Positions 27,441 through 62,008 of a stretch of DNA of 64,000 bases are shown here, piece by piece. A program made the position numbers and the translations under genes. The first letter of the stretch is position 1; every line of letters starts with the position of its first letter. Source of the DNA: Pseudomonadota bacterium (GTDB lineage Bacteria > Pseudomonadota > Alphaproteobacteria > Acetobacterales > Acetobacteraceae); the NCBI GenBank assembly GCA_021781835.1, contig JAJXWD010000001.1:62001-126000 (forward strand), read 5' to 3'. Below the pieces are notes generated by a model that worked only from the letters and a program-made list of their open reading frames with translations, was not told the origin of the DNA and made no database searches.

Positions 27441-28085
27441 CTACTCGACCGCGACTCGCAATGCCGCCCCAGCCGCGAGCGGCGCCAAAGGCAGGGCCAG
27501 ACAGAAAATGGCGCCCAGAAACGCGAAGGCGCCCAGCGGGTGCGGGGCGATGACGGCGTTGGCGCCAAAAATCAGCGCCGGGATCATCAAGGGCAGCGTG
27601 ATGAGGGCCATGAGCACCCCGGCCCGGCGCGCGCCCAGCGTGAGCGCCGCCGCCAGCGTGCCCACCAGGGAGAAAATGAGCGTGCCCGGCACCAGCCCCG
27701 CCAGCAACAGCGGCATGGCATGGTTGGGCAGGCGCAGCATGACGGCGAGCGGCGCGGCGATGAGCAGCAGCGGCAGGCCGGTGGTGAGCCAATGCGCGCA
27801 CGCCTTGGCGAGCGCCACGATATAGGCCGGCAGACCCGAGAGCAGCAGCAGGTCGAGCGTGCCATCCTCGAAATCGGCGCCGAACAGTTTTTCCAGCGGC
27901 AGCAGCGCGGCGAGCAGCGCCGCCACCCACACCACGCCAGGCGCGAGCGCGGCGAGCAGCGCGGGGTCGGGCCCGACGCCAAACGCGAACATGGTGCCGC
28001 AAATGATGAAGAACACCAGGGCGGCGACGGTATCGGCCCCCTGGCGCAGCGCCAGGCGCAATTCGCGGGCGATCAGGGTTTTCAT
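27441..28085 (-). CDS. ccmB: CcmB, heme exporter permease subunit
   Basis: 214-aa membrane protein with six predicted helices, partner of CcmA in releasing holo-CcmE during cytochrome c maturation. Typical segments: RELRLALRQGADTVAALVFF, LEKLFGADFEDGTLDLLLLS and GTLIFSLVGTLAAALTLG. ATG at 28085 overlaps the ccmA stop (ATGA); the longer frame lies inside ccmA. It is leftward, unlike ccmC-I, and converges closely with the epimerase (9 nt). Confidence 0.92.
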   Translation of the reverse strand: MKTLIARELRLALRQGADTVAALVFFIICGTMFAFGVGPDPALLAALAPGVVWVAALLAALLPLEKLFGADFEDGTLDLLLLSGLPAYIVALAKACAHWLTTGLPLLLIAAPLAVMLRLPNHAMPLLLAGLVPGTLIFSLVGTLAAALTLGARRAGVLMALITLPLMIPALIFGANAVIAPHPLGAFAFLGAIFCLALPLAPLAAGAALRVAVE

Positions 28086-28654
28086 AGCGCCAGCACCTCG
28101 GCGCCGGGCAGCTCGAGCGCCACATGCGTGCTGGTGATGATCATGCCCCCCGCCGCGCGGTGGCGCGCGCAAAGCGCGGTGAAGCGGCCGATGGAGGTGG
28201 CATCGAGGCCGGTGGTCGGCTCATCGAGCAGCCAGAGCGGGCGCAGAGAGGCCGCCACCCGCGCCAGAGCCAGACGGCGTTTCTGCCCGGCCGAGAGAAA
28301 CCGCGCCGGCAGGGCCGCGAATCGCTCAAGCCCCATATCGGTCAGGGCCGTCTGGTCGGTGACATGTTCGGCCACCGACAAGGCGGGCTTCACGGCATCG
28401 AGATGGCCAAGCCAGGCGATGCGCGCGGCGTGACTCGGAAAATCGGCCATGGCCGGCACGCCGTTCCAGAAAATCTGTCCGCCCGCCAGCGGGGCCAGCC
28501 CGGCCAGCGTGCGCAATAATGTGGATTTGCCGGTGCCGTTATCGCCGCGCAACACCAGCGCGCCGCCCGCCGCCACGGACAGCGACACGCCGCGCAACAC
28601 CAGACGCTCGCCACGAAACACCGAAAGCCCTTCGCCTGTAAGCTGATTTACCAC
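28082..28654 (-). CDS. ccmA: CcmA, heme exporter ATP-binding subunit
   Basis: 190-aa ATPase of the CcmAB complex. Walker A GDNGTGKSTLLR, signature FLSAGQKRRLALARV and Walker B LWLLDEPTTGLD are intact, and the size matches the compact CcmA family. I choose GTG at 28654 since GGAAAGG ends 6 nt upstream; TTG at 28669 is in frame but overlaps that ribosome site. It is transcribed leftward with ccmB, divergent from the triheme cytochrome gene. Confidence 0.9.
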   Translation of the reverse strand: MVNQLTGEGLSVFRGERLVLRGVSLSVAAGGALVLRGDNGTGKSTLLRTLAGLAPLAGGQIFWNGVPAMADFPSHAARIAWLGHLDAVKPALSVAEHVTDQTALTDMGLERFAALPARFLSAGQKRRLALARVAASLRPLWLLDEPTTGLDATSIGRFTALCARHRAAGGMIITSTHVALELPGAEVLAL

Positions 28655-28848
28655 CACATGCCTTTCCAAACGCGCCGCGGTCTGGCGCGGGGTGTAACGG
28701 CAAGCCGCCGCGCAGGCAACCGCTTGGCGGGCGCTATGGGGGCTTCACTGTCTTTTTTCAAGACAAGTCTTTTCATGCCACCGTAAACGGAGCTAGGAAG
28801 CTTCCCGTCGAGGGGTTGCACCCGCGCGCCCCCAAGGAAACATGCCCC

Positions 28849-30180
28849 ATGATGCGTATCCTTCCCACCAAATCCTCCCGCCGCTTCAGCATGGCGCTTT
28901 GTGCGCTCACCTTGTTTCTGGGTGGCGCCCTGTTCGTCCGCAACGCCGCCGCCAATAATGACGCGGCCGATTACCCCGCCGCCTCGCTCAGCGCACCAAC
29001 CGACCCGACGGCGCTGATCGCGCGCGGCAAATATCTGGTCGCGGCGGCCGACTGCGCGCCTTGCCATACCGGCCCCAACCACGCGCCCTTCACCGGCGGG
29101 CTGGTGATGCAAACCCCGTTCGGCGGCCTGGCCTCGCCCAACATTACGCCAGACCCCACCACCGGCATCGGCAAATGGACCGGCAAGCAGTTCTACGACG
29201 CCCTCCATTACGGCATCGCGCCCGGACATGATTGGCTGATCTTCCCGCGCTTCCTCTATCCGGCCATGCCCTATACCAGCTACACCAAGCTGTCTTACGC
29301 CGATGTGATGGCCATCAAGGCCTATCTGGACAGCCTGGCCCCCGCGCCGGTGCAGCCCACCCCCTCCACGATGCGCTTCCCCTTCAACCAGCGCCCCGTG
29401 CTGCTGGGCTGGCGTTTGCTGTTCTTCCATTCCGGCCCCATGCAAATGAACCCGGCCTGGAACGACCAGATGAAGAACGGCGCCTACCTGACCGAGGCGC
29501 TCGGCCACTGCCAGGAATGCCATACGCCGCGCAATTTCCTCTCGGCCATGATTCCCTCTAAGGCCTTTGCCGGCGCGCCGATCGACGCGTTCTACGCCCC
29601 CAACATCTCCTCGGATAAAACCCAGGGCGTGGGCGGCTGGAATCCGGCCGATCTGGTCGCGTATCTGCACGATGAGGGCAATCTGGTGAAAGGCTCGCCC
29701 TATGCCTCGATGGGCGAGATGACCCACAACTCCACCAGCCAGATTCCGGTGTCTGACGATCAGGACATCGCGCTGTATCTGCAAACCGCCACCGCGCCCC
29801 AGCAGGTAACGCCGCCCGCCGCCGCGAGCGACGCCACCGCCTCGATCGCCCGTGGCGCCACGCTTTATGCCAGCACATGCTCGGGTTGCCACGGCGCCCA
29901 GGGCGCGGGCATGGGGCCGCAGATGGTGCCTAACCTGGCCGGCAACGACTCGGTCACCGCCGCCTATCCTGACAACGTGATCGGCGCCACCCTGGCCGGC
30001 CTCACCCCGTGGACCGCCATTCCGATGCCGAGCTTCGCGGCCCAGCTGTCGGACCAGAACATCGCCGACATCGCCAATTATGTGCGTACCGCCTGGGGCA
30101 ATAAGGGCGTGCCCAACGCCACTCCAGACATGGTCGCCAAGCTGCGCCAACGCGCAGGGGTGGCCGAAAAAGCCAACTGA
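28849..30180 (+). CDS. Periplasmic triheme cytochrome c (alcohol/gluconate dehydrogenase subunit II-like)
   Basis: 443-aa cytochrome with three CXXCH sites: CAPCH at 69-73, CQECH at 221-225 and CSGCH at 344-348. An N-terminal signal segment (MALCALTLFLGGALFVRN) leads to the periplasm. The layout of three class I-type domains and TPFGGLASPNITPDPTTGIG matches the cytochrome subunit of membrane alcohol, sorbitol or gluconate dehydrogenases that feed ubiquinone. No dehydrogenase subunit lies beside it, so it is an orphan. AAGGAAA precedes the ATG at 28849. A strong terminator follows. Confidence 0.9.
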   Translation: MMRILPTKSSRRFSMALCALTLFLGGALFVRNAAANNDAADYPAASLSAPTDPTALIARGKYLVAAADCAPCHTGPNHAPFTGGLVMQTPFGGLASPNITPDPTTGIGKWTGKQFYDALHYGIAPGHDWLIFPRFLYPAMPYTSYTKLSYADVMAIKAYLDSLAPAPVQPTPSTMRFPFNQRPVLLGWRLLFFHSGPMQMNPAWNDQMKNGAYLTEALGHCQECHTPRNFLSAMIPSKAFAGAPIDAFYAPNISSDKTQGVGGWNPADLVAYLHDEGNLVKGSPYASMGEMTHNSTSQIPVSDDQDIALYLQTATAPQQVTPPAAASDATASIARGATLYASTCSGCHGAQGAGMGPQMVPNLAGNDSVTAAYPDNVIGATLAGLTPWTAIPMPSFAAQLSDQNIADIANYVRTAWGNKGVPNATPDMVAKLRQRAGVAEKAN

Positions 30181-30201
30181 TCAGCCCCCGGGCTGCACCA
30201 A

Positions 30202-30236
30202 AAGGGCTTCCGGCTAACGCCGGAAGCCCTTTTTTC
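30202..30236 (+). terminator. Intrinsic terminator after the triheme cytochrome
   Basis: An 11-bp perfect stem GGGCTTCCGGC / GCCGGAAGCCC (30204-30214, 30219-30229), loop TAAC, preceded by AAA and followed by seven Ts. Clear rho-independent terminator. Confidence 0.92.
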
Positions 30237-30326
30237 GTCCCCTCCGGGCCGTGAAAATCCCGCCCCGAAATTGGGGTTAATATCGAAATTTAATGAATTT
30301 TCCTTTGTTATTTCCAACCCATGACT

Positions 30327-30340
30327 TTGATCCACGTCAA
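30327..30340. promoter_or_regulatory. FNR/FixK-type box upstream of the porin-cytochrome operon
   Basis: TTGATCCACGTCAA matches the TTGA-N6-TCAA consensus of the CRP/FNR family perfectly, and TTGAT-N4-ATCAA at nine of ten positions. It ends 101 nt before the GTG start at 30442. If it acts as a class II site, transcription would start near 30375. This suggests control by oxygen or redox state (inference). Confidence 0.65.
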
Positions 30341-30441
30341 TGCCAGGGGGGGTGATTTTGTTTAGGCGGAACGGACCGCGAAATGCGGCCTTGCCGCTGC
30401 TTTTGGCGTGTTATTTCGATTAAAAAACAAGGAGGCTTGTC

Positions 30442-31797
30442 GTGAATTTTCGTGCATCCCGCTATATGGCGGCTGCCTTACCTGTTTTAGCTGGCGTTCT
30501 CGCCGCGCCGCAGGCCCAGGCAATCCCCGCTTTCGCGGCCCAGACCGGCGAGCCTTGCTCGGCCTGTCACATCGGCTTCCCGCAGCTCACCGCCTATGGG
30601 CGGTTGTTCAAGCTCGAAGGCTATGTGGCGGGCGGCGACACGCCGACTCTCAAGAATTTCGCTGCCATGACACAGGCTGGGTTCACCTATCTGAACCAGA
30701 ACGTGCCGGGCGGGCTGTCGGCTGACTATCCCTCGAACGACGCCCTCTCCGTTCAGCAGACCAGCCTGTTTTATGGCGGCGCGCTTTATGCGCCGATCGG
30801 CCTTGGCGCGTTCATTCAAGGCACGTTCGACGGCGTTGCCCACCAGTTCCACTGGGACAACACCGACATCCGCCTTGCCCGGCCGCTCGATGTCGCGGGC
30901 ATGCCGGCCTATGTCGGTCTGACCTTCAACAACAACCCCGGCGTGACCGATCTGTGGAACACCCCGCCGGCCTGGGGTTATCCGTTCATCCCCGATGAGC
31001 TGGCCGTGGGCAACACCGCGGGCGTGGCGCTCAGCGGGCTTGGCCAAAGCGTGTACGGCCTGGGCGCTTATGGCTCGCTCAACATCACCCCGTCCGACAT
31101 GCTTTATGCCGAGGCTGATTTTTACAGCCAGCTTCCCGATCATACCGCCTATGCGCTGGGCGTTGGGCCGGAAGCCGGTATTTCGGGCGTCATTCCTTAT
31201 TGGCGCGTTGCCTATCAGCATAGCTGGGGCGCCAGCTCGTTCGAGGCCGGTGCGCTGGGCCTGATCGATAACCCCTATCCGGCGGGTTACAAGAGCGGCC
31301 CGACCGACCAGATGGTGGATGTCGGGCTTGATTCGCAGTTCCAGTGGATCACGATCACCCATGCGCTGTCGCTGCAGGCTTTGTATGTGCATGAGAATCA
31401 GCATTGGAGCGCCAGCTACCCGCTGGGTCTGACGGCGAACCCGACCGACCGCCTCAACCAGCTGACCCTGACCGCCTCTTATCTGTATCTGCAGAAGGTC
31501 GGCATCACCGAGACCTATAACGGCATCTGGGGCAACGCCGATCCGTCGATCTATGCCGCGGCCCCGATTTCGGGTAATGCCAACGGCAAACCCAACACCA
31601 CCAGCTTCACCACCGAACTTGATTACTACCCCTGGAACAATGGTGGTCCGTCTTTCATGCCTTGGATGAATGCCAAGGTATTCCTGGAAGACACGATCTA
31701 TCCTGTGTTCAACGGGCTGTCGCATAACTATGATGGCTCGGGCCGCAATGCCAGCGACAACAATGTTGTCTTCACTGGCATCTGGCTTGCTTTCTAA
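30442..31797 (+). CDS. Cyc2-like fused outer-membrane porin-cytochrome c
   Basis: 451-aa protein starting at GTG, with GGAGG 6 nt upstream. A signal peptide ends near AQA at residue 27. It is followed at once by FAAQTGEPCSACHIGFPQLT, with one heme site CSACH at 39-43, then AYGRLFKLEGYV. The remaining about 380 residues lack further hemes and alternate short amphipathic strands (LYAEADFYSQLP, SLQALYVHENQHW, LTASYLYLQKVG), ending VVFTGIWLAF with a terminal Phe typical of outer-membrane barrels. A single N-terminal heme plug plus a barrel of 400-480 aa is the architecture of Cyc2, the Fe(II) oxidase of iron oxidisers. Physiological role here is unknown; Fe oxidation, Fe reduction or another extracellular electron exchange is possible. 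Confidence 0.78.
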   Translation: MNFRASRYMAAALPVLAGVLAAPQAQAIPAFAAQTGEPCSACHIGFPQLTAYGRLFKLEGYVAGGDTPTLKNFAAMTQAGFTYLNQNVPGGLSADYPSNDALSVQQTSLFYGGALYAPIGLGAFIQGTFDGVAHQFHWDNTDIRLARPLDVAGMPAYVGLTFNNNPGVTDLWNTPPAWGYPFIPDELAVGNTAGVALSGLGQSVYGLGAYGSLNITPSDMLYAEADFYSQLPDHTAYALGVGPEAGISGVIPYWRVAYQHSWGASSFEAGALGLIDNPYPAGYKSGPTDQMVDVGLDSQFQWITITHALSLQALYVHENQHWSASYPLGLTANPTDRLNQLTLTASYLYLQKVGITETYNGIWGNADPSIYAAAPISGNANGKPNTTSFTTELDYYPWNNGGPSFMPWMNAKVFLEDTIYPVFNGLSHNYDGSGRNASDNNVVFTGIWLAF

Positions 31798-31816
31798 CTC
31801 TTCACAAGGATTCAAC

Positions 31817-32200
31817 ATGAAATTTCGTTTAACCCTCTTCACCGTTCTGCTGGCCGGCGCGACTGGTTTTGGCGTCGCTCACGCTGCCGGTTCGGCCTCC
31901 GCCGGGCAGGCCGTGTATTCCAGCCAGTGCGCGCTGTGCCACTCCAACCAGCCGGGTGGCGTCGGCATTGGGCCGAGCCTTGCTGGCGTGTATGGCCAGC
32001 CGGCCGCCGCGCAGGGCAATTATGACTACTCCTCGGCGATGAAAAACTCGCATCTGACCTGGAACGACGCCACGCTCAACAAGTTCCTGGCGGCGCCGCA
32101 GGCCACCGTGCCTGGCACCAAGATGCCCTATGCCGGGCTGACCGATGCCGGCCAGCGCGCCGATGTGATCGCGTATCTCGCCTCCATCGCCGGTAAGTAA
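31817..32200 (+). CDS. Periplasmic monoheme class I cytochrome c
   Basis: 127-aa cytochrome: signal peptide to about residue 23 (VAHA), heme site CALCH at 38-42, and axial Met103 in GTKMPYAG, with WNDATLNKFL before it, as in cytochrome c2/c550. AAGGA precedes the ATG at 31817, 19 nt after the porin-cytochrome stop, so the two are co-transcribed. It is the natural periplasmic electron partner of the outer-membrane protein, as Cyc1-type cytochromes are for Cyc2. A double hairpin terminator follows. Confidence 0.92.
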   Translation: MKFRLTLFTVLLAGATGFGVAHAAGSASAGQAVYSSQCALCHSNQPGGVGIGPSLAGVYGQPAAAQGNYDYSSAMKNSHLTWNDATLNKFLAAPQATVPGTKMPYAGLTDAGQRADVIAYLASIAGK

Positions 32201-32206
32201 CAAAAC

Positions 32207-32280
32207 GCGCCGCCGGTATCATCGCCGGCGGCGCTCCGCCAAACCCGCCTGTTCAGGCTGCCGACAGGCGGGTTTTTTTA
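32207..32280 (+). terminator. Hairpin plus intrinsic terminator after the cytochrome operon
   Basis: First hairpin GCGCCGCCGG / CCGGCGGCGC (32207-32216, 32225-32234). Second, 11-bp stem AACCCGCCTGT / ACAGGCGGGTT (32242-32252, 32264-32274), merges into a run of seven Ts. The second is a standard terminator and isolates the cytochrome operon from ccmC. Confidence 0.88.
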
Positions 32281-32337
32281 TTACCGGCATGCCATGACGG
32301 ATTTTGAATTTTCCAGGCTAAAGGCTATAGAAACCTC

Positions 32338-33132
32338 ATGCAAAGCATGCACAGCGCCGGCGAGAGAACGGCACGGGGAAATTTGAGCGGCCGCAAACAA
32401 GCGGGGTGGCTGCATTATTTCGCCAATCCAGGCCGCTTCGCGCGGTTCGCGCGGCCTATTCTGCCCTGGCTGGGCGCCGTGTCGGCCTTGCTGGTGGTCA
32501 TTGGCATCGTCTGGGGCTATGCGTTCGCGCCCGCCGATTTCCAGCAAGGCAATGCCGCGCGGATCATGTATGTGCATGTGCCCGCCGCCTGGGTGTCGAT
32601 GTCGGGCTATGCCATGCTCGCGCTTTGTTCGTTTTTCTCGCTGGTCTGGCGCCACCCGCTGGCGGATATCGCCGCCGAGGAAATTGGCCCGGTGGGCGCT
32701 GGCTTCACGTTCATCTGCTTAGTGTCGGGGGCGCTGTGGGGCCGGCCGACCTGGGGCACTTATTGGGTGTGGGATGCGCGCCTGACCTCGGTGCTGATCC
32801 TGTTCTTCCTCTATCTCGGCCATATCGCGCTGGTGCGCGGCTTTGAGAGCCGCGAGCGCGGCTACCGCGCGGGGGCGATCTTGGCGCTGGCCGGGGTGGT
32901 CAATCTGCCCATCATCGTGTTCTCGGTGCAATGGTGGAACACGCTGCACCAGGGCAACTCCTTTTCCCTCTCCGGATCCTCGATCTACCCTTCGATGCTC
33001 TACCCGCTGCTGGTTGCCACGCTGGGGTTCTATCTCTGCTTCCTCACGCTGGTGCTGGCGCGCGTACTCGCCGCCATCATGGAGCGTAAAACCTCATCTC
33101 TGCTGCTGGCGAACGCGGAGCGCGACGCATGA
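32338..33132 (+). CDS. ccmC: CcmC, heme-handling membrane protein
   Basis: 264-aa six-helix protein that loads heme onto CcmE. The tryptophan-rich WWD domain is seen as WGRPTWGTYWVWDARLTSVL, with heme-ligand His in IMYVHVPAAWVSM and VQWWNTLHQGNSFS. The N-terminal about 35 residues are cytoplasmic. No strong ribosome site; ATG at 32347 is an alternative. First gene of ccmCDEFGHI, each overlapping or abutting the next. Confidence 0.94.
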   Translation: MQSMHSAGERTARGNLSGRKQAGWLHYFANPGRFARFARPILPWLGAVSALLVVIGIVWGYAFAPADFQQGNAARIMYVHVPAAWVSMSGYAMLALCSFFSLVWRHPLADIAAEEIGPVGAGFTFICLVSGALWGRPTWGTYWVWDARLTSVLILFFLYLGHIALVRGFESRERGYRAGAILALAGVVNLPIIVFSVQWWNTLHQGNSFSLSGSSIYPSMLYPLLVATLGFYLCFLTLVLARVLAAIMERKTSSLLLANAERDA

Positions 33133-33269
33133 TCGAACATCTCGACCCCTGGCCCTTCATTAATGGCGCCTATGGTATTTCGGTGCTGTTTCTGGCCGGC
33201 ACCGCCCTGTTGACCTGGCGCCGCCTGCGCCAAGCCGCCAAACGTCTCGCCCAGACCGAAGCCTCGTAA
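33129..33269 (+). CDS. ccmD: CcmD, small heme exporter subunit
   Basis: 46-aa protein found by reading the gap between ccmC and ccmE. It starts MIEHLDPWPFINGAYGISVL, continues as one membrane helix and ends in the basic tail WRRLRQAAKRLAQ. This is the CcmD pattern (short periplasmic start, one helix, positively charged cytoplasmic end). ATG overlaps the ccmC stop (ATGA) and its TAA overlaps the ccmE ATG (TAATG). Confidence 0.9.
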   Translation: MIEHLDPWPFINGAYGISVLFLAGTALLTWRRLRQAAKRLAQTEAS

Positions 33270-33757
33270 TGCTCAAGCCCAAAACCCGGCGCCTTTACAT
33301 GTTCTCGGCGCTTTTGCTCGGCTTCGGGGGCGCGACCGCGCTCGCGTTGGTGGGCTTCTCCTCATCGCTCACCTATTTTCTCTCGCCCCGGCAGGTGGCA
33401 GCCCATGCGCCGCCCGCGGGCGAAACCTTCCGGCTTGGCGGCATCGTCGAGGCGGGCACGGTGCAAACCACCCAGACCGGCGAAAGCCTGACCACGCGCT
33501 TTGACGTGACGGACGGCCAGGCGGCGGTGCCGGTGGTGTATACCGGCGTGCTGCCGGACCTGTTCGGGGTTGGGCAGGGTGTGGTGACGATCGGCGCCCT
33601 GGGGCCCGATGGCGCCTTTCACGCCGATGAGGTGCTGGCCAAGCATGGCTCGACCTATATGCCGCGCGATGTCGCGCAATCTCTCAAAAATGCCGGCAAG
33701 TGGAATCCGAAATTCGGCCCCGCGCCTGGGCCTGACGCGCTGGGGAGCACTTCATGA
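33269..33757 (+). CDS. ccmE: CcmE, periplasmic heme chaperone
   Basis: 162-aa membrane-anchored OB-fold protein. N-terminal anchor (MFSALLLGFGGATALALVGF), then FRLGGIVEAGTV and the heme-binding region VLAKHGSTYMPRDV with the His that covalently binds heme and the downstream Tyr. Size and order match ccmE. Overlaps ccmD and ccmF by 1 and 4 nt. Confidence 0.94.
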   Translation: MLKPKTRRLYMFSALLLGFGGATALALVGFSSSLTYFLSPRQVAAHAPPAGETFRLGGIVEAGTVQTTQTGESLTTRFDVTDGQAAVPVVYTGVLPDLFGVGQGVVTIGALGPDGAFHADEVLAKHGSTYMPRDVAQSLKNAGKWNPKFGPAPGPDALGSTS

Positions 33758-35682
33758 TTCCTGAACTCGGGCATTTCGCCCTCGCCCTCGCGGTGGCCAT
33801 CGCGGGGGCGCAGGCGGTGATTGGGCTATTTGGCCCGTCGCTGCGCGACCCGCGCGCGCTGGCCGCCGCGCCGCTGCTGGCCATCTGCCAGTTCGCCGCC
33901 GCCGCCTGCGCGTTTGGCGCGCTCGTCTGGGCGGGGGTGGTCTCGGACTTCACGGTCGAGAACATCGCCAATTTCTCATCGGCCGAGGTGCCGCTCTTCT
34001 ACCGCATCTCGGGCGTGTGGGGAAACCATGACGGGTCGATCCTGCTCTGGTGCCTCATCCTCTCGCTATGCGGCTTGGCCGTGGCGGTGGCGGGCGGCAA
34101 CCTGCCCGCCACGCTGCGCGCGCGGGTGCTGGGCGTGCTGGGGCTGGTTTCAGCGGGGTTCCTGCTGTTCACCCTCACCGTCTCCAACCCGTTCACGCGC
34201 ATCTGGCCGCCGCCGCAGGACGGCCAGGGCATGAACCCCATTTTGCAAGATCCCGGCCTCGCCTTTCATCCGCCTGTGCTCTACATCGGCTATGTCGGGT
34301 TTTCGGTGGCCTTCGCCTTTGCCATCGCCGCGCTGCTCGAAGGCCGGGTGGATGCCGCGTTTGGCCGCTGGGTGCGCCCCTGGGCGCTGGTTTCCTGGTG
34401 CTTTCTCACCAGCGGCATCGCGCTGGGCTCCTGGTGGTCTTACTACACGCTGGGCTGGGGCGGGTACTGGTTTTGGGACCCGGTGGAAAACGCCTCGCTG
34501 CTGCCCTGGCTGACCGGCACGGCCCTGCTGCATTGCGCCATCGTGGTTGAGAAGCGCGAGGCCCTGAAAGCCTGGACGGTGCTGTTTGCCATCGCCACCT
34601 TCTCGCTCTCGCTCACCGGCACGTTTCTGGTGCGCTCAGGCATTCTCAACTCGGTGCACAGCTTCGCCGCCTCGCCCGACCAGGGATTGTTCATTCTGGC
34701 GCTGCTTGGCATCACCATTGGCGGGTCGCTGCTGCTGTTCGCCATCCGTGCGCCCGCGCTCACGGCCAACGGCATTTACGCCCCCCTCTCTCGTGAGAGC
34801 GCGCTGGTGCTGAACAATGTGTTTCTGGGGGCAAGCACGGCCGTGGTCTTCACCGGCACGCTCTATCCGCCCGTGCTCAACCTGCTCACCGGCATCCAGC
34901 TCTCGGTCGGCGCGCCCTTTTTCAACCAGACGGTCATTCCCCTCTCGGTGCCCATCATCCTCACCATGGGCGCGGGGCCGCTGCTGGCCTGGAAACGCGC
35001 CAGCCTGGCGCCGGTGGCGCAGCGTCTGGCCCTGGCCGGCGCGGTGGCGCTGGTGCTGCTGGCCGCGATGACCGCCGCCACCAACCTCGTCACCGCACTC
35101 GGTCTGGCGGGAGGAACCTGGGTCATCCTCTCGGCCTTGACCGACCTGGCAATGCGCGCCGGGCTGGGGCGTGTGAGCCCCGCCGCCGCCTTGGGCCGCC
35201 TGGTCAAGCTGCCGCGCGCCCAGGTGGGCGCGGCACTCGGGCATATCGGTTTTGGGGTGACCGTGCTGGGCATTGCCGGCATGACCCTGGCCAGCCAGAG
35301 CGTGGTGGTGCTCTCGCCCGGCCAAAGCACCGTGGTCGGCGGGTACAGCTTCAAGCTCGACAATATCACCAAGGCACCCGGGCCGAATTATACCCAGCAC
35401 ATCGCCACGCTCAGCGTTGATGGGCTGAAGCTCTATCCCACGCGGCGGTTTTTCTCGGCGCAAGGCATCATCACCTCCGATGCCGCCATCCACACCAACG
35501 GCTTTGTCGATCTTTACACCGTGTTCGCGGGCGAACCGAACGGCAATGCCGAATTGCGGCTGAGCGTGCATCCGCTGGCGCCCGAAATCTGGCTGGGCGG
35601 GTTGATCATGGCCCTTGGCGGGTTCTTCTCGCTTTCCGACCGGCGCCTGCGCATCGGCGCCCCTTCGCGGAGGGCCGCCTGA
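33754..35682 (+). CDS. ccmF: CcmF, cytochrome c heme lyase subunit
   Basis: 642-aa protein with many membrane helices; attaches heme from CcmE to apocytochrome. The WWD domain is WGGYWFWDPVENASLLPWLT, and conserved His regions include FHPPVLYIGYVGFSVAF and RSGILNSVHSFA. Full length for the family. TGATG junction with ccmG. Confidence 0.95.
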   Translation: MIPELGHFALALAVAIAGAQAVIGLFGPSLRDPRALAAAPLLAICQFAAAACAFGALVWAGVVSDFTVENIANFSSAEVPLFYRISGVWGNHDGSILLWCLILSLCGLAVAVAGGNLPATLRARVLGVLGLVSAGFLLFTLTVSNPFTRIWPPPQDGQGMNPILQDPGLAFHPPVLYIGYVGFSVAFAFAIAALLEGRVDAAFGRWVRPWALVSWCFLTSGIALGSWWSYYTLGWGGYWFWDPVENASLLPWLTGTALLHCAIVVEKREALKAWTVLFAIATFSLSLTGTFLVRSGILNSVHSFAASPDQGLFILALLGITIGGSLLLFAIRAPALTANGIYAPLSRESALVLNNVFLGASTAVVFTGTLYPPVLNLLTGIQLSVGAPFFNQTVIPLSVPIILTMGAGPLLAWKRASLAPVAQRLALAGAVALVLLAAMTAATNLVTALGLAGGTWVILSALTDLAMRAGLGRVSPAAALGRLVKLPRAQVGAALGHIGFGVTVLGIAGMTLASQSVVVLSPGQSTVVGGYSFKLDNITKAPGPNYTQHIATLSVDGLKLYPTRRFFSAQGIITSDAAIHTNGFVDLYTVFAGEPNGNAELRLSVHPLAPEIWLGGLIMALGGFFSLSDRRLRIGAPSRRAA

Positions 35683-36239
35683 TGTCGCCTCTACGCCGCC
35701 GCCTGTTGTTTGGGGTGCCGCTGGCCCTGGTGTCGGCCGGGGGGGCGGCGATGTACACGCTGCTCGAGCGCATGCGCACCGACCAGTATGACCCGCGCGC
35801 CTTCCCCTCGCCGTTGCTGGGCAAGCCCCTGCCGGCCTTTTCTCTGCCAGGCACAGGCGGCCTGCCGGGCTTTGCCAATACCGACCTCACCGCCCCGCCC
35901 CGCCCCGTGCTGGTCAACTGGTTCTCCTCCTGGTGCGCGGTGTGCCCGCAAGAGGCGCCCCAGCTCGCCGCGCTGGCCCGCCAGGGCGTGCCGGTCTGGG
36001 GCATTGATTACGAGGACACGCCCACCGCGCTGGCGGAGTTTCTGGCCACCAACGGCACGCCTTACAGCCGCATCGGCGCTGACAAATCCGGCCTCACCGC
36101 GATCAATTGGGGGGTCTATGGCGTGCCCGAGACGTTCTTGATCGACAAAACCGGCATCGTGCGCTGGCATTTCGCCGGCGCCCTCACCGATGAGCTGGTG
36201 GCCGAGCGGCTCCAGCCGCTGCTGGAGCAATACGCATGA
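35682..36239 (+). CDS. ccmG: CcmG/DsbE thiol-disulfide oxidoreductase
   Basis: 185-aa membrane-anchored thioredoxin-like protein that reduces apocytochrome cysteines before heme attachment. Active site WCAVCPQE and the cis-Pro region GVYGVPETFLIDKTG are seen after an N-terminal anchor. Stop overlaps ccmH (ATGA). The two active-site residues between the Cys (Ala, Val) differ from the common Pro-Thr. Confidence 0.94.
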   Translation: MSPLRRRLLFGVPLALVSAGGAAMYTLLERMRTDQYDPRAFPSPLLGKPLPAFSLPGTGGLPGFANTDLTAPPRPVLVNWFSSWCAVCPQEAPQLAALARQGVPVWGIDYEDTPTALAEFLATNGTPYSRIGADKSGLTAINWGVYGVPETFLIDKTGIVRWHFAGALTDELVAERLQPLLEQYA

Positions 36240-36679
36240 GACGCTGGCTGTTGGCCCTGGCGCTGCTGCCGAGCCTGGCGTTGGCCCAAAGCACCGTGAC
36301 GCGCGACGGCGTGACGCTGACCCAGGCCCAGGAGGCGGAAGCCGAGCAGATCGGCGGCCAGTTGCGCTGTCTGGTGTGCCAGGGGGAAAGCCTGGAGGAA
36401 TCTGACGCCACCCTGGCCAAGCAGCTGCGCGGCATCATCCGCCAGCAGGTGGTGGCCGGCGTGGCGCCATCGCAAATCCAATCCTACCTGGTGCAGCGCT
36501 ACGGCATCTTCATTTTGCTCAAGCCGCCGTTCAGCCCGATCACCTGGCTGCTCTACGCCATGCCCGTGCTGGCCTTGCTGGCCGGGGGATTGGGGTTTTG
36601 GGCCACCCGCCGCGGCGCCACGCCCCGCCCCGCCCCCTTGACCGACGCCGAAGCCGCCCGGCTGAAGGAACTTCTGTGA
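36236..36679 (+). CDS. ccmH: CcmH, apocytochrome thiol-handling subunit
   Basis: 147-aa protein: signal peptide to about residue 18, then QLRCLVCQGESLEESDATLA with the LRCxxCQ redox motif, a three-helix domain, and a C-terminal membrane helix (PITWLLYAMPVLALLAGGLG). Corresponds to the N-terminal half of E. coli CcmH. Its stop overlaps the GTG start of ccmI. Confidence 0.94.
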   Translation: MRRWLLALALLPSLALAQSTVTRDGVTLTQAQEAEAEQIGGQLRCLVCQGESLEESDATLAKQLRGIIRQQVVAGVAPSQIQSYLVQRYGIFILLKPPFSPITWLLYAMPVLALLAGGLGFWATRRGATPRPAPLTDAEAARLKELL

Positions 36680-61975: not shown

Positions 61976-62008
61976 GCTTAATCATTTTTCATCACCCTGG
62001 CGCGCCGC

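Follow-up and report, generated by a model that had tools for sequence, protein, structure and literature searches.

Which way do electrons run through a porin that carries its own heme, when its gene sits behind what looks like a low-oxygen switch? The question is raised by a locus in a stretch of 64,000 nucleotides (nt) from a bacterium of the Acetobacteraceae (hereafter the window; positions 62,001 to 126,000 of contig JAJXWD010000001.1), the host genome of which comprises 2.9 Mb and is 99% complete. A gene at 30442..31797 on the plus strand, with a GTG start, encodes a protein of 451 amino acids (aa) that resembles the outer-membrane Fe(II) oxidase Cyc2. We show here that this protein has the porin-cytochrome architecture of Cyc2 but lacks its defining arginine, and that the FNR/FixK-type box ahead of its gene is conserved among related loci. 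In our reading the protein would be an outer-membrane electron conduit that is induced at low oxygen and most likely reduces dissolved Fe(III), to which we assign a probability of about 0.52.

The fused porin-cytochrome and its relation to Cyc2

The gene product is described as a Cyc2-like fused cytochrome-porin on the strength of its relatives, their alignment, an AlphaFold2 model, matches to solved porins and a tree. Searches recovered 38 relatives, 37 of them at 57-93% identity over the best segment and one (L038) at 39%. In the alignment of the window protein with 37 relatives (alignment A1, 38 rows; L034, truncated by a contig end, was left out) 19 residues of the heme segment between A25 and K57 are invariant, heme ligands included. 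Because relatives were found and residues are conserved, the open reading frame (ORF) at 30442-31797 is real; a chance ORF was rejected on account of the 38 relatives and the dense conservation in A1. A predicted signal peptide, read by eye from the sequence, covers residues 1-27 (30442..30522, plus strand; the end is approximate). It is followed by the heme c site CSACH at residues 39-43 (30556..30570, plus strand), evident from sequence and alignment and lying within AIPAFAAQTGEPCSACHIGFPQL. This is the sole heme site of the protein, and the C-terminus reads GIWLAF, with Phe as the last residue. The original prediction, made from the letters of the window, had named signal peptide, single N-terminal heme site and terminal Phe, and the sequence bears them out. 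Neither Pfam and NCBIfam (E up to 1) nor PADLOC contained a family that matched the protein, and homologues tried at E up to 0.01, four against Pfam and three against NCBIfam, matched none. Within the host genome there is a single match to the protein by sequence (E up to 1), and likewise by profile.

The same prediction had proposed a barrel-like remainder and named structure modelling among the checks. The AlphaFold2 model made with A1 has 16 strands (mean predicted local distance difference test score, pLDDT, 75; predicted template modelling score, pTM, 0.78), with a predicted 16-strand beta-barrel at residues 73-450 (30658..31791, plus strand) and short helices that precede it and surround the heme site. 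The closest solved folds, both by Foldseek and by a second structure comparison with Z scores, are 16-strand porins: OprB at Z 21.4, OprO at 20.8 (a mutant at 21.0), OprP at 20.8, OmpF at about 20-21 and many others alike. A soluble fold was rejected in view of the 16-strand model and these porin matches. By sequence, a search of solved structures with the window protein returned just three xylanase chains at chance level (E 0.3-0.4), and a profile of the motif-bearing homologues introduced below matched none of the solved structures, and thus no Cyc2 structure. The architecture that the model predicts, with good support, is a porin barrel of 16 strands joined to a cytochrome c segment with one heme, and the protein would accordingly be placed in the outer membrane. 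OprO, OprP and OprB share the barrel fold (Z about 21) at 11-14% identity but, unlike the window protein, are heme-free. OprO and OprP have also been named as structural matches for the Cyc2 of Mariprofundus (Keffer et al., 2021; PMC8406198).

Cyc2 as characterised so far has a signal peptide, one N-terminal CXXCH, a PXL mark, more than 365 aa and an OprO/OprP-like barrel (Keffer et al., 2021, PMC8406198; McAllister et al., 2020, PMC7029218), and this architecture is common to both proteins. The window protein combines its signal peptide (by eye) with one CXXCH near the N-terminus, has PXL behind it (CSACHIGFPQL), and exceeds the length mark of at least 365 aa with 451 aa and 16 modelled strands. 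One difference lies in a filter motif five residues ahead of the heme site, AXPXFAR[Q/K][T/Y], which has been called unique to Cyc2 (PMC8406198). Here the window protein reads AIPAFAAQT, with Ala in place of the motif Arg, and Ala also replaces Arg in 37 relatives of the window clade. Because the Arg is missing we do not file the protein under Cyc2 in the strict sense; judged by its sequence, it is Cyc2-like. The Cyc2 identity first suggested for it thus stands for the modelled porin-cytochrome architecture with its 16 strands, but not for the defining Arg. In a tree of 95 rows the window clade comprises 45 rows with a branch support of 100/100. With a midpoint root, and in a comparison made without named references from Acidithiobacillus ferrooxidans, Mariprofundus and Leptospirillum, it groups with full-length homologues, some of which bear the Arg motif. 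The f38 group with the exact motif, at a guess Gallionellaceae, forms a separate, distant clade, and its profile match covers mainly the heme end. Arg is present in 30 of the 95 rows, and its presence or absence requires at least 4 state changes. The tree left out L034, L041, L047, L050, L061 and L100, and the motif filter missed L068, L071, L099, L103 and L105.

The FNR-type box and the genes that share it

The box, TTGATCCACGTCAA, lies at 30327..30340 on the plus strand (centre 30333.5), where it was found by pattern search, and ends 101 nt ahead of the start codon of the Cyc2-like gene. It is one base off the full form TTGATN4ATCAA. For the window by itself the case is weak, with TTGAN6TCAA found twice in the whole 64 kb against 0.28 expected and two or more matches in 3 of 100 shuffles; the box stands out from chance because 27 of 38 related loci have it conserved in the corresponding position. 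In a stretch reaching 200 nt upstream and 30 nt downstream of the chosen start codon, the exact TTGA-N6-TCAA in these 27 loci compares with 0.2 expected, the full palindrome TTGATN4ATCAA (16/38) with 0.12 and the relaxed TTG[AC]N6[TG]CAA (32/38) with 0.9, expected counts that were derived from the remaining, predominantly coding sequence of the 38 loci and that chance in intergenic DNA may exceed. A reversed control pattern was present in none of the 38 loci.

The spacing downstream of the box is conserved as well. For this analysis, rows that carry TTGC-type boxes were admitted, and thinning at an identity of 75% or higher left 28 rows. An A stands at box start +37 in 24 of the 28 dereplicated rows, and the position before it holds T or C in 25 of the 28. 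At 1.59 bits, the A position exceeds all 2000 shuffles, the highest of which reached 0.68. This A sits 30.5 nt from the box centre and is base 30364 in the window. In class II FNR-activated promoters, the box is centred at -41.5. Taking the box centre as -41.5 therefore puts the conserved A at -11, with a transcription start predicted near 30375, and makes 30363..30364 (plus strand) the putative -12/-11 'TA' of a -10 element, as the fixed distance from the box suggests. A plain scan for the sigma-70 consensus gave no promoter in the 30363-30364 region. The conserved pattern gives good support to a geometry of the class II FNR-activated type, and activation at low oxygen through binding of a regulator at the predicted box would be expected from it. 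A chance box was rejected in view of the conservation across loci, the excess over control in the bacterium's own genome and the conserved spacing, and the same three lines confirm the FNR/FixK-type box that had initially been noticed about 100 nt upstream.

In the host genome TTGATN5TCAA has 21 forward and 22 reverse matches (43 in all, at 31 distinct sites), against one forward and no reverse match of the control pattern. Genes were assigned to boxes by distance and orientation. Those identified above model cut-offs are hemN (oxygen-independent coproporphyrinogen oxidase), hemB (porphobilinogen synthase), hcp (hydroxylamine reductase), a hydrogenase small subunit and a succinyl-CoA:acetate CoA-transferase, while an FnrL/FixK-like regulator, a PhsA-like molybdoenzyme and a CyoA-like oxidase subunit stay below the cut-offs of their best models. 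In six of 17 hand-picked gene/box pairs, CA or TA stands at the distance seen in the Cyc2-like operon, namely in those of hemN, hcp, the hydrogenase, the PhsA-like protein and, both named by eye, a CBS-domain protein and a supposed 2-oxoglutarate (2OG)-Fe(II) enzyme. Since the box and the CA/TA spacing are the same, the Cyc2-like operon appears to share its switch with several anaerobic-type genes. The regulator, at L114, reaches 155 bits with the FnrL model and 144 bits with FixK (cut-offs 300), and 86 bits with the Fnr subfamily (cut-off 228); four model hits suggest a protein of the Crp/FNR type, all three quoted scores being below cut-off, and N-terminal cysteines can be recognised by eye. 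CBS-domain proteins follow some of the about 31 FNR-type sites (L107-L134), and the box ahead of the CyoA-like oxidase subunit lacks the activator spacing.

Boxes also occur at homologues outside the window clade, where at most 30 loci were taken per genome search and near relatives were kept unthinned. Among usable loci (28/30 in family f43, 29/30 in f5, 42/44 of the others, 8/12 in the motif-bearing group) a box was found at 17 of 28 in f43 against 0.12 expected, at 7 of 29 in f5 against 0.42 (just 2 of the TTGATN4RTCAA form) and at 15 of 42 other homologue loci against 0.81; the f43 and f5 rates may run high, because these families were chosen after boxes had been seen at L091 and L078, and three loci were counted in two sets (L091/L165, L092/L192, L078/L195). 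The motif-bearing group, matched over the heme domain only (f38, f86), differs from the window clade with its conserved box in that 1 of 8 usable loci has one. The motif Arg is kept in 27 of 28 f43 proteins and in none of 29 f5 proteins; as both families have boxes, low-oxygen control is not tied to loss of the Arg.

How does this relate to known systems? Porin-multiheme conduits of the MtrAB, MtoAB and PioAB types pass electrons across the outer membrane by two or more proteins, with a larger barrel and a multiheme wire. Their task is similar in outline to that proposed for the window protein, and the host genome has no match to NapC/CymA-type or DmsE/MtrA-type (TIGR03508) families at E up to 0.001, other multiheme families not having been searched. 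Closer to the window protein are the Cyc2 homologues reported in Acidiphilium, Acidisphaera and Acidocella from a similarity network (PMC10654088) and in Acetobacteraceae next to mono- or di-heme cytochromes (PMC10715153). Together with a homologue from an Acidocella genome (PMC8357290) they come from the same hosts and most likely belong to the same family, so that the initial remark that such a conduit would be unexpected here did not hold: the Acidocella and Acidiphilium homologues are published, and members of the family occur commonly in the group. These three studies build on homology, and the portions of their texts available to us mention neither an FNR-type promoter nor the lost Arg nor low-oxygen control. 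Likewise, the open-licence literature searched, accessible in part, yielded no report of FNR control of the Cyc2-like family. The regulation thus seems to be the new part, the protein family being already known in these genera. A small cytochrome c is also encoded in the lxa locus of Burkholderia cenocepacia, which is activated at low oxygen; from the available parts of the sources (PMC6127331, PMC9104464, PMC3759415) no Cyc2-like member could be established for it.

Putative partner cytochrome and direction of electron flow

A gene for a class I cytochrome c of 127 aa, probably periplasmic and a putative electron partner, follows at 31817..32200 on the plus strand. It had been noted from the sequence, is matched by PF00034 (E=3.9e-11) and begins 19 nt past the stop codon of the Cyc2-like gene, a gap so small that we infer co-transcription. 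By BLAST, 22 of the 38 related loci have a homologous cytochrome c gene adjoining the Cyc2-like one. A simple test for a heme-motif ORF directly downstream, which misses some cytochromes that BLAST detects, was positive in 16 of 36 usable loci of relatives (L038 included), in 4/5 plasmid loci, 4/20 other members from the bacterium's own family, 6/17 loci from the phylum, 10/27 in f43, 13/29 in f5 and 1/8 in the motif-bearing group; among control ORFs it was positive in 19 of 321. When the small cytochrome c was sought in the genomes of nine relatives, all nine had a match at E up to 1e-5, the best match in several of them being a far longer ORF of about 340-360 aa. The idea of a partner cytochrome thus comes out weaker than hoped.

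In the mechanism that we propose, an FNR-type regulator would bind the box, centred at about -41.5, when oxygen runs out, and would activate the operon, so that the fused porin-cytochrome is made together with the small periplasmic cytochrome c. Reduced cytochrome c would then deliver electrons to the heme that the fused protein carries, and from this heme they would leave through the pore to a dissolved external oxidant, most likely Fe3+, which is favoured because it dissolves well and is plentiful under the acid conditions of the habitat. The direction is tilted towards reduction by the anaerobic-type promoter and the genes sharing it. Anaerobic growth on ferric iron is reported for Acidocella aromatica (PMC10715153), and Fe(III) reduction is also known from Acidiphilium, where A. 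acidophilum is effective at it only under micro-aerobic conditions (PMC8790237). As A. aromatica and Acidiphilium cryptum JF-5 carry the gene, these reports support reduction, and the lack of NapC/CymA-type and DmsE/MtrA-type matches in the host genome counts on the same side. Both the direction and iron as the substrate are putative.

Several points weigh against Fe(III) reduction at low oxygen. Characterised Cyc2 relatives oxidise Fe(II) (PMC8406198), and FNR control would fit microaerobic Fe(II) oxidation as well. The host genome encodes a COX1 resembling the aa3-type cytochrome c oxidase, a natural sink for Fe(II) electrons. Its cytochrome b has Trp at two expected heme-ligand positions and its Rieske protein is without the expected ligands (both by eye; L164, contig C20); with both looking degenerate, no standard quinol-to-cytochrome c route is seen. 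A degenerate bc1 complex has been described for Acidocella and acidophilic Acetobacteraceae, where it was used to propose Fe(II) oxidation (PMC10715153). Moreover, Acidocella is listed among the strictly respiratory genera and, in the part of that text at hand, not named among users of other acceptors (PMC11141062). On the side of the promoter, to the possibly higher chance level of boxes in intergenic DNA come 11 of 38 loci without the exact box (L005, L006, L008, L009, L010, L020, L021, L033, L034, L036 and L038), five of which (L009, L010, L020, L021 and L034) have a TTGC variant. Variant boxes are of the TTGAG type in A. aromatica and Acidocella aquatica and of the TTGCG type in A. facilis and A. 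aminolytica. In the host genome, 11 of the 17 gene/box pairs are without the CA/TA spacing, that of the FNR-type regulator included. Boxes in families of unspecified habitat imply that the substrate may be wider than dissolved Fe3+. As for the proteins, heme segment residues 31-60, which would form a plug of the Cyc2 kind, have low confidence in the model, which was made without heme (block-mean pLDDT 39-66), and in the four Acidocella species just named an adjoining cytochrome c gene of this type was not found. The gene copy of Acidiphilium multivorum is frameshifted, though the genus reduces Fe(III), and the plasmid copy of A. cryptum JF-5 has no box in the tested stretch. According to a review JF-5 reduces iron at whatever oxygen level (PMC8790237), and the absence of the box would fit a loss of the switch; as a single case, it may also be chance.

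Much of this evidence would suit an Fe(II) oxidase of the Cyc2 type, in which electrons pass from Fe2+ via the fused heme and the small cytochrome c to the aa3 oxidase, bypassing the broken bc1 complex and providing a heterotroph with extra energy. Besides the COX1-like oxidase and the degenerate-looking cytochrome b and Rieske protein, the proposal of Fe(II) oxidation for acidophilic Acetobacteraceae (PMC10715153) speaks for it, and so does a report on Acidocella metagenome-assembled genome (MAG) 20, by its name probably that of locus L012, in which a Cyc2-like gene was tentatively linked to Fe(II) oxidation (PMC8357290). However, an anaerobic-type activator promoter common to hemN, hcp and the hydrogenase is odd for an oxygen-using oxidase, and contig C10, which bears the oxidase, has no TTGATN5TCAA match; we regard this direction as unlikely. 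Boxes ahead of homologues in further families would be explained as well by a reversible or general outlet at low oxygen, through which Fe3+, chromate, vanadate, quinones, humics or an electrode could be served with no single natural substrate. The precious-metal nanoparticles made by Acidocella and Acidiphilium (PMC11141062) and the metal-reducing cytochrome gene apcA of Acidiphilium (PMC7677001) are in line with such a role, although it is gene and promoter from which it would have to be argued, and we consider it improbable. A barrel of the general, phosphate and sugar porin type, and the many homologues without a directly downstream heme-motif ORF, might finally point to what is mainly a substrate pore, induced at low oxygen, with a structural or sensor heme and no respiratory current. 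The dense conservation of the heme segment and the cytochrome c gene alongside in more than half of the related loci argue against a mere pore, and we give it hardly any weight.

Induction at low oxygen with dissolved Fe(III) as the likely oxidant is the reading that we prefer. A wider claim may be put forward tentatively, and with more doubt than conviction: fused porin-cytochromes of heterotrophic Proteobacteria could largely be FNR-controlled terminal reductases, the window branch could represent the Fe(III) reductase long sought in Acidocella and Acidiphilium, and Cyc2 homology would then be an unsafe marker of iron oxidation. Fe(III) reduction by extreme acidophiles has been described as little known (PMC8790237), and the gene, its likely partner, the regulator and the promoter are now testable in culturable acidophile species. 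Because homologues in several families sit behind a low-oxygen-type switch, metagenome studies in which counted Cyc2-like genes stand for Fe(II) oxidation may get the direction wrong. For the Acidocella MAG, a Cyc2-like gene was counted in this way, if cautiously (PMC8357290).

Gene neighbourhood and distribution

Upstream of the operon, at 28849..30180 on the plus strand, a gene encodes a c-type cytochrome of 443 aa with three CXXCH sites (PF13442/PF00034 matches), and probably forms a separate transcription unit. Between it and the Cyc2-like operon lies a terminator-like hairpin (30200..30233, plus strand; folding energy -28.5 kcal/mol, z -6.6, none of 200 shuffles as low). Past the operon, a terminator-like stem with a T-run (32258..32271, plus strand) was found by a consensus scan, which gave 7 such sites in 28600-32400 against 3.4 expected. 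One may speculate that the three-CXXCH cytochrome is a quinol-side electron source replacing the degenerate bc1 complex; no dehydrogenase partner was noticed alongside it. These genes lie in a cytochrome c maturation cluster (27441-36679) that is split, with three cytochrome genes between ccmBA and ccmC-G. The flanking parts are ccmB and ccmA for the heme exporter (27441..28669, minus strand; TIGR01190 and TIGR01189, above cut-off) and ccmC, ccmE, a ccmF-type gene and dsbE/ccmG (32338..36239, plus strand; CcmC, CcmE and DsbE models above a cut-off). The CcmF/NrfE-type protein is above the cut-off of one subfamily model and slightly below that of another, and ccmH (36236-36679) was recognised by eye, with no model match at E up to 1e-20. 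Among the 38 relatives, and within the available sequence, the three-CXXCH cytochrome adjoins the Cyc2-like gene in L002 and L003 only. The insertion into the ccm cluster, shared by these two, is thus local. In A. aromatica (L017) the downstream genes encode an aminotransferase, a glutamine-synthetase-like protein and a PAD_porph protein, with no evident link, and clustering found mostly the same genes downstream in A. facilis, A. aquatica and A. aminolytica.

Matches to the Cyc2-like protein were found in 60 of 200 genomes sampled from the bacterium's own family and in 88 of 398 from its phylum, the latter mostly partial f38 matches, as well as in 31 of 250 genomes of family f43 and 36 of 249 of family f5. 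Named carriers include Acidocella facilis, A. aromatica, A. aquatica and A. aminolytica, and Acidiphilium rubrum and A. iwatense, as well as plasmids of A. cryptum JF-5 and A. multivorum. The JF-5 gene has an intact ORF over 455 aa. That this copy might be broken was rejected, since the second piece (L040, 7450-7708) is a decayed C-terminal remnant behind the open gene. The L040 and L041 copies (plasmids pACRY03 and pACMV3) adjoin transposase genes and are both without an FNR box in the tested stretch. A plasmid filed as Acidithiobacillus ferrooxidans YQ-N3 (L047, CP084173.1) gives tblastn values equal to those of the A. cryptum pACRY03 stretch, with a closely similar gene order, which indicates either transfer or a mixed culture. 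In 14 loci, among them those of the four Acidocella species, a gene of one cluster, identified in L017 (4802-5806) as encoding a WD40 beta-propeller, lies divergently upstream of the Cyc2-like gene.

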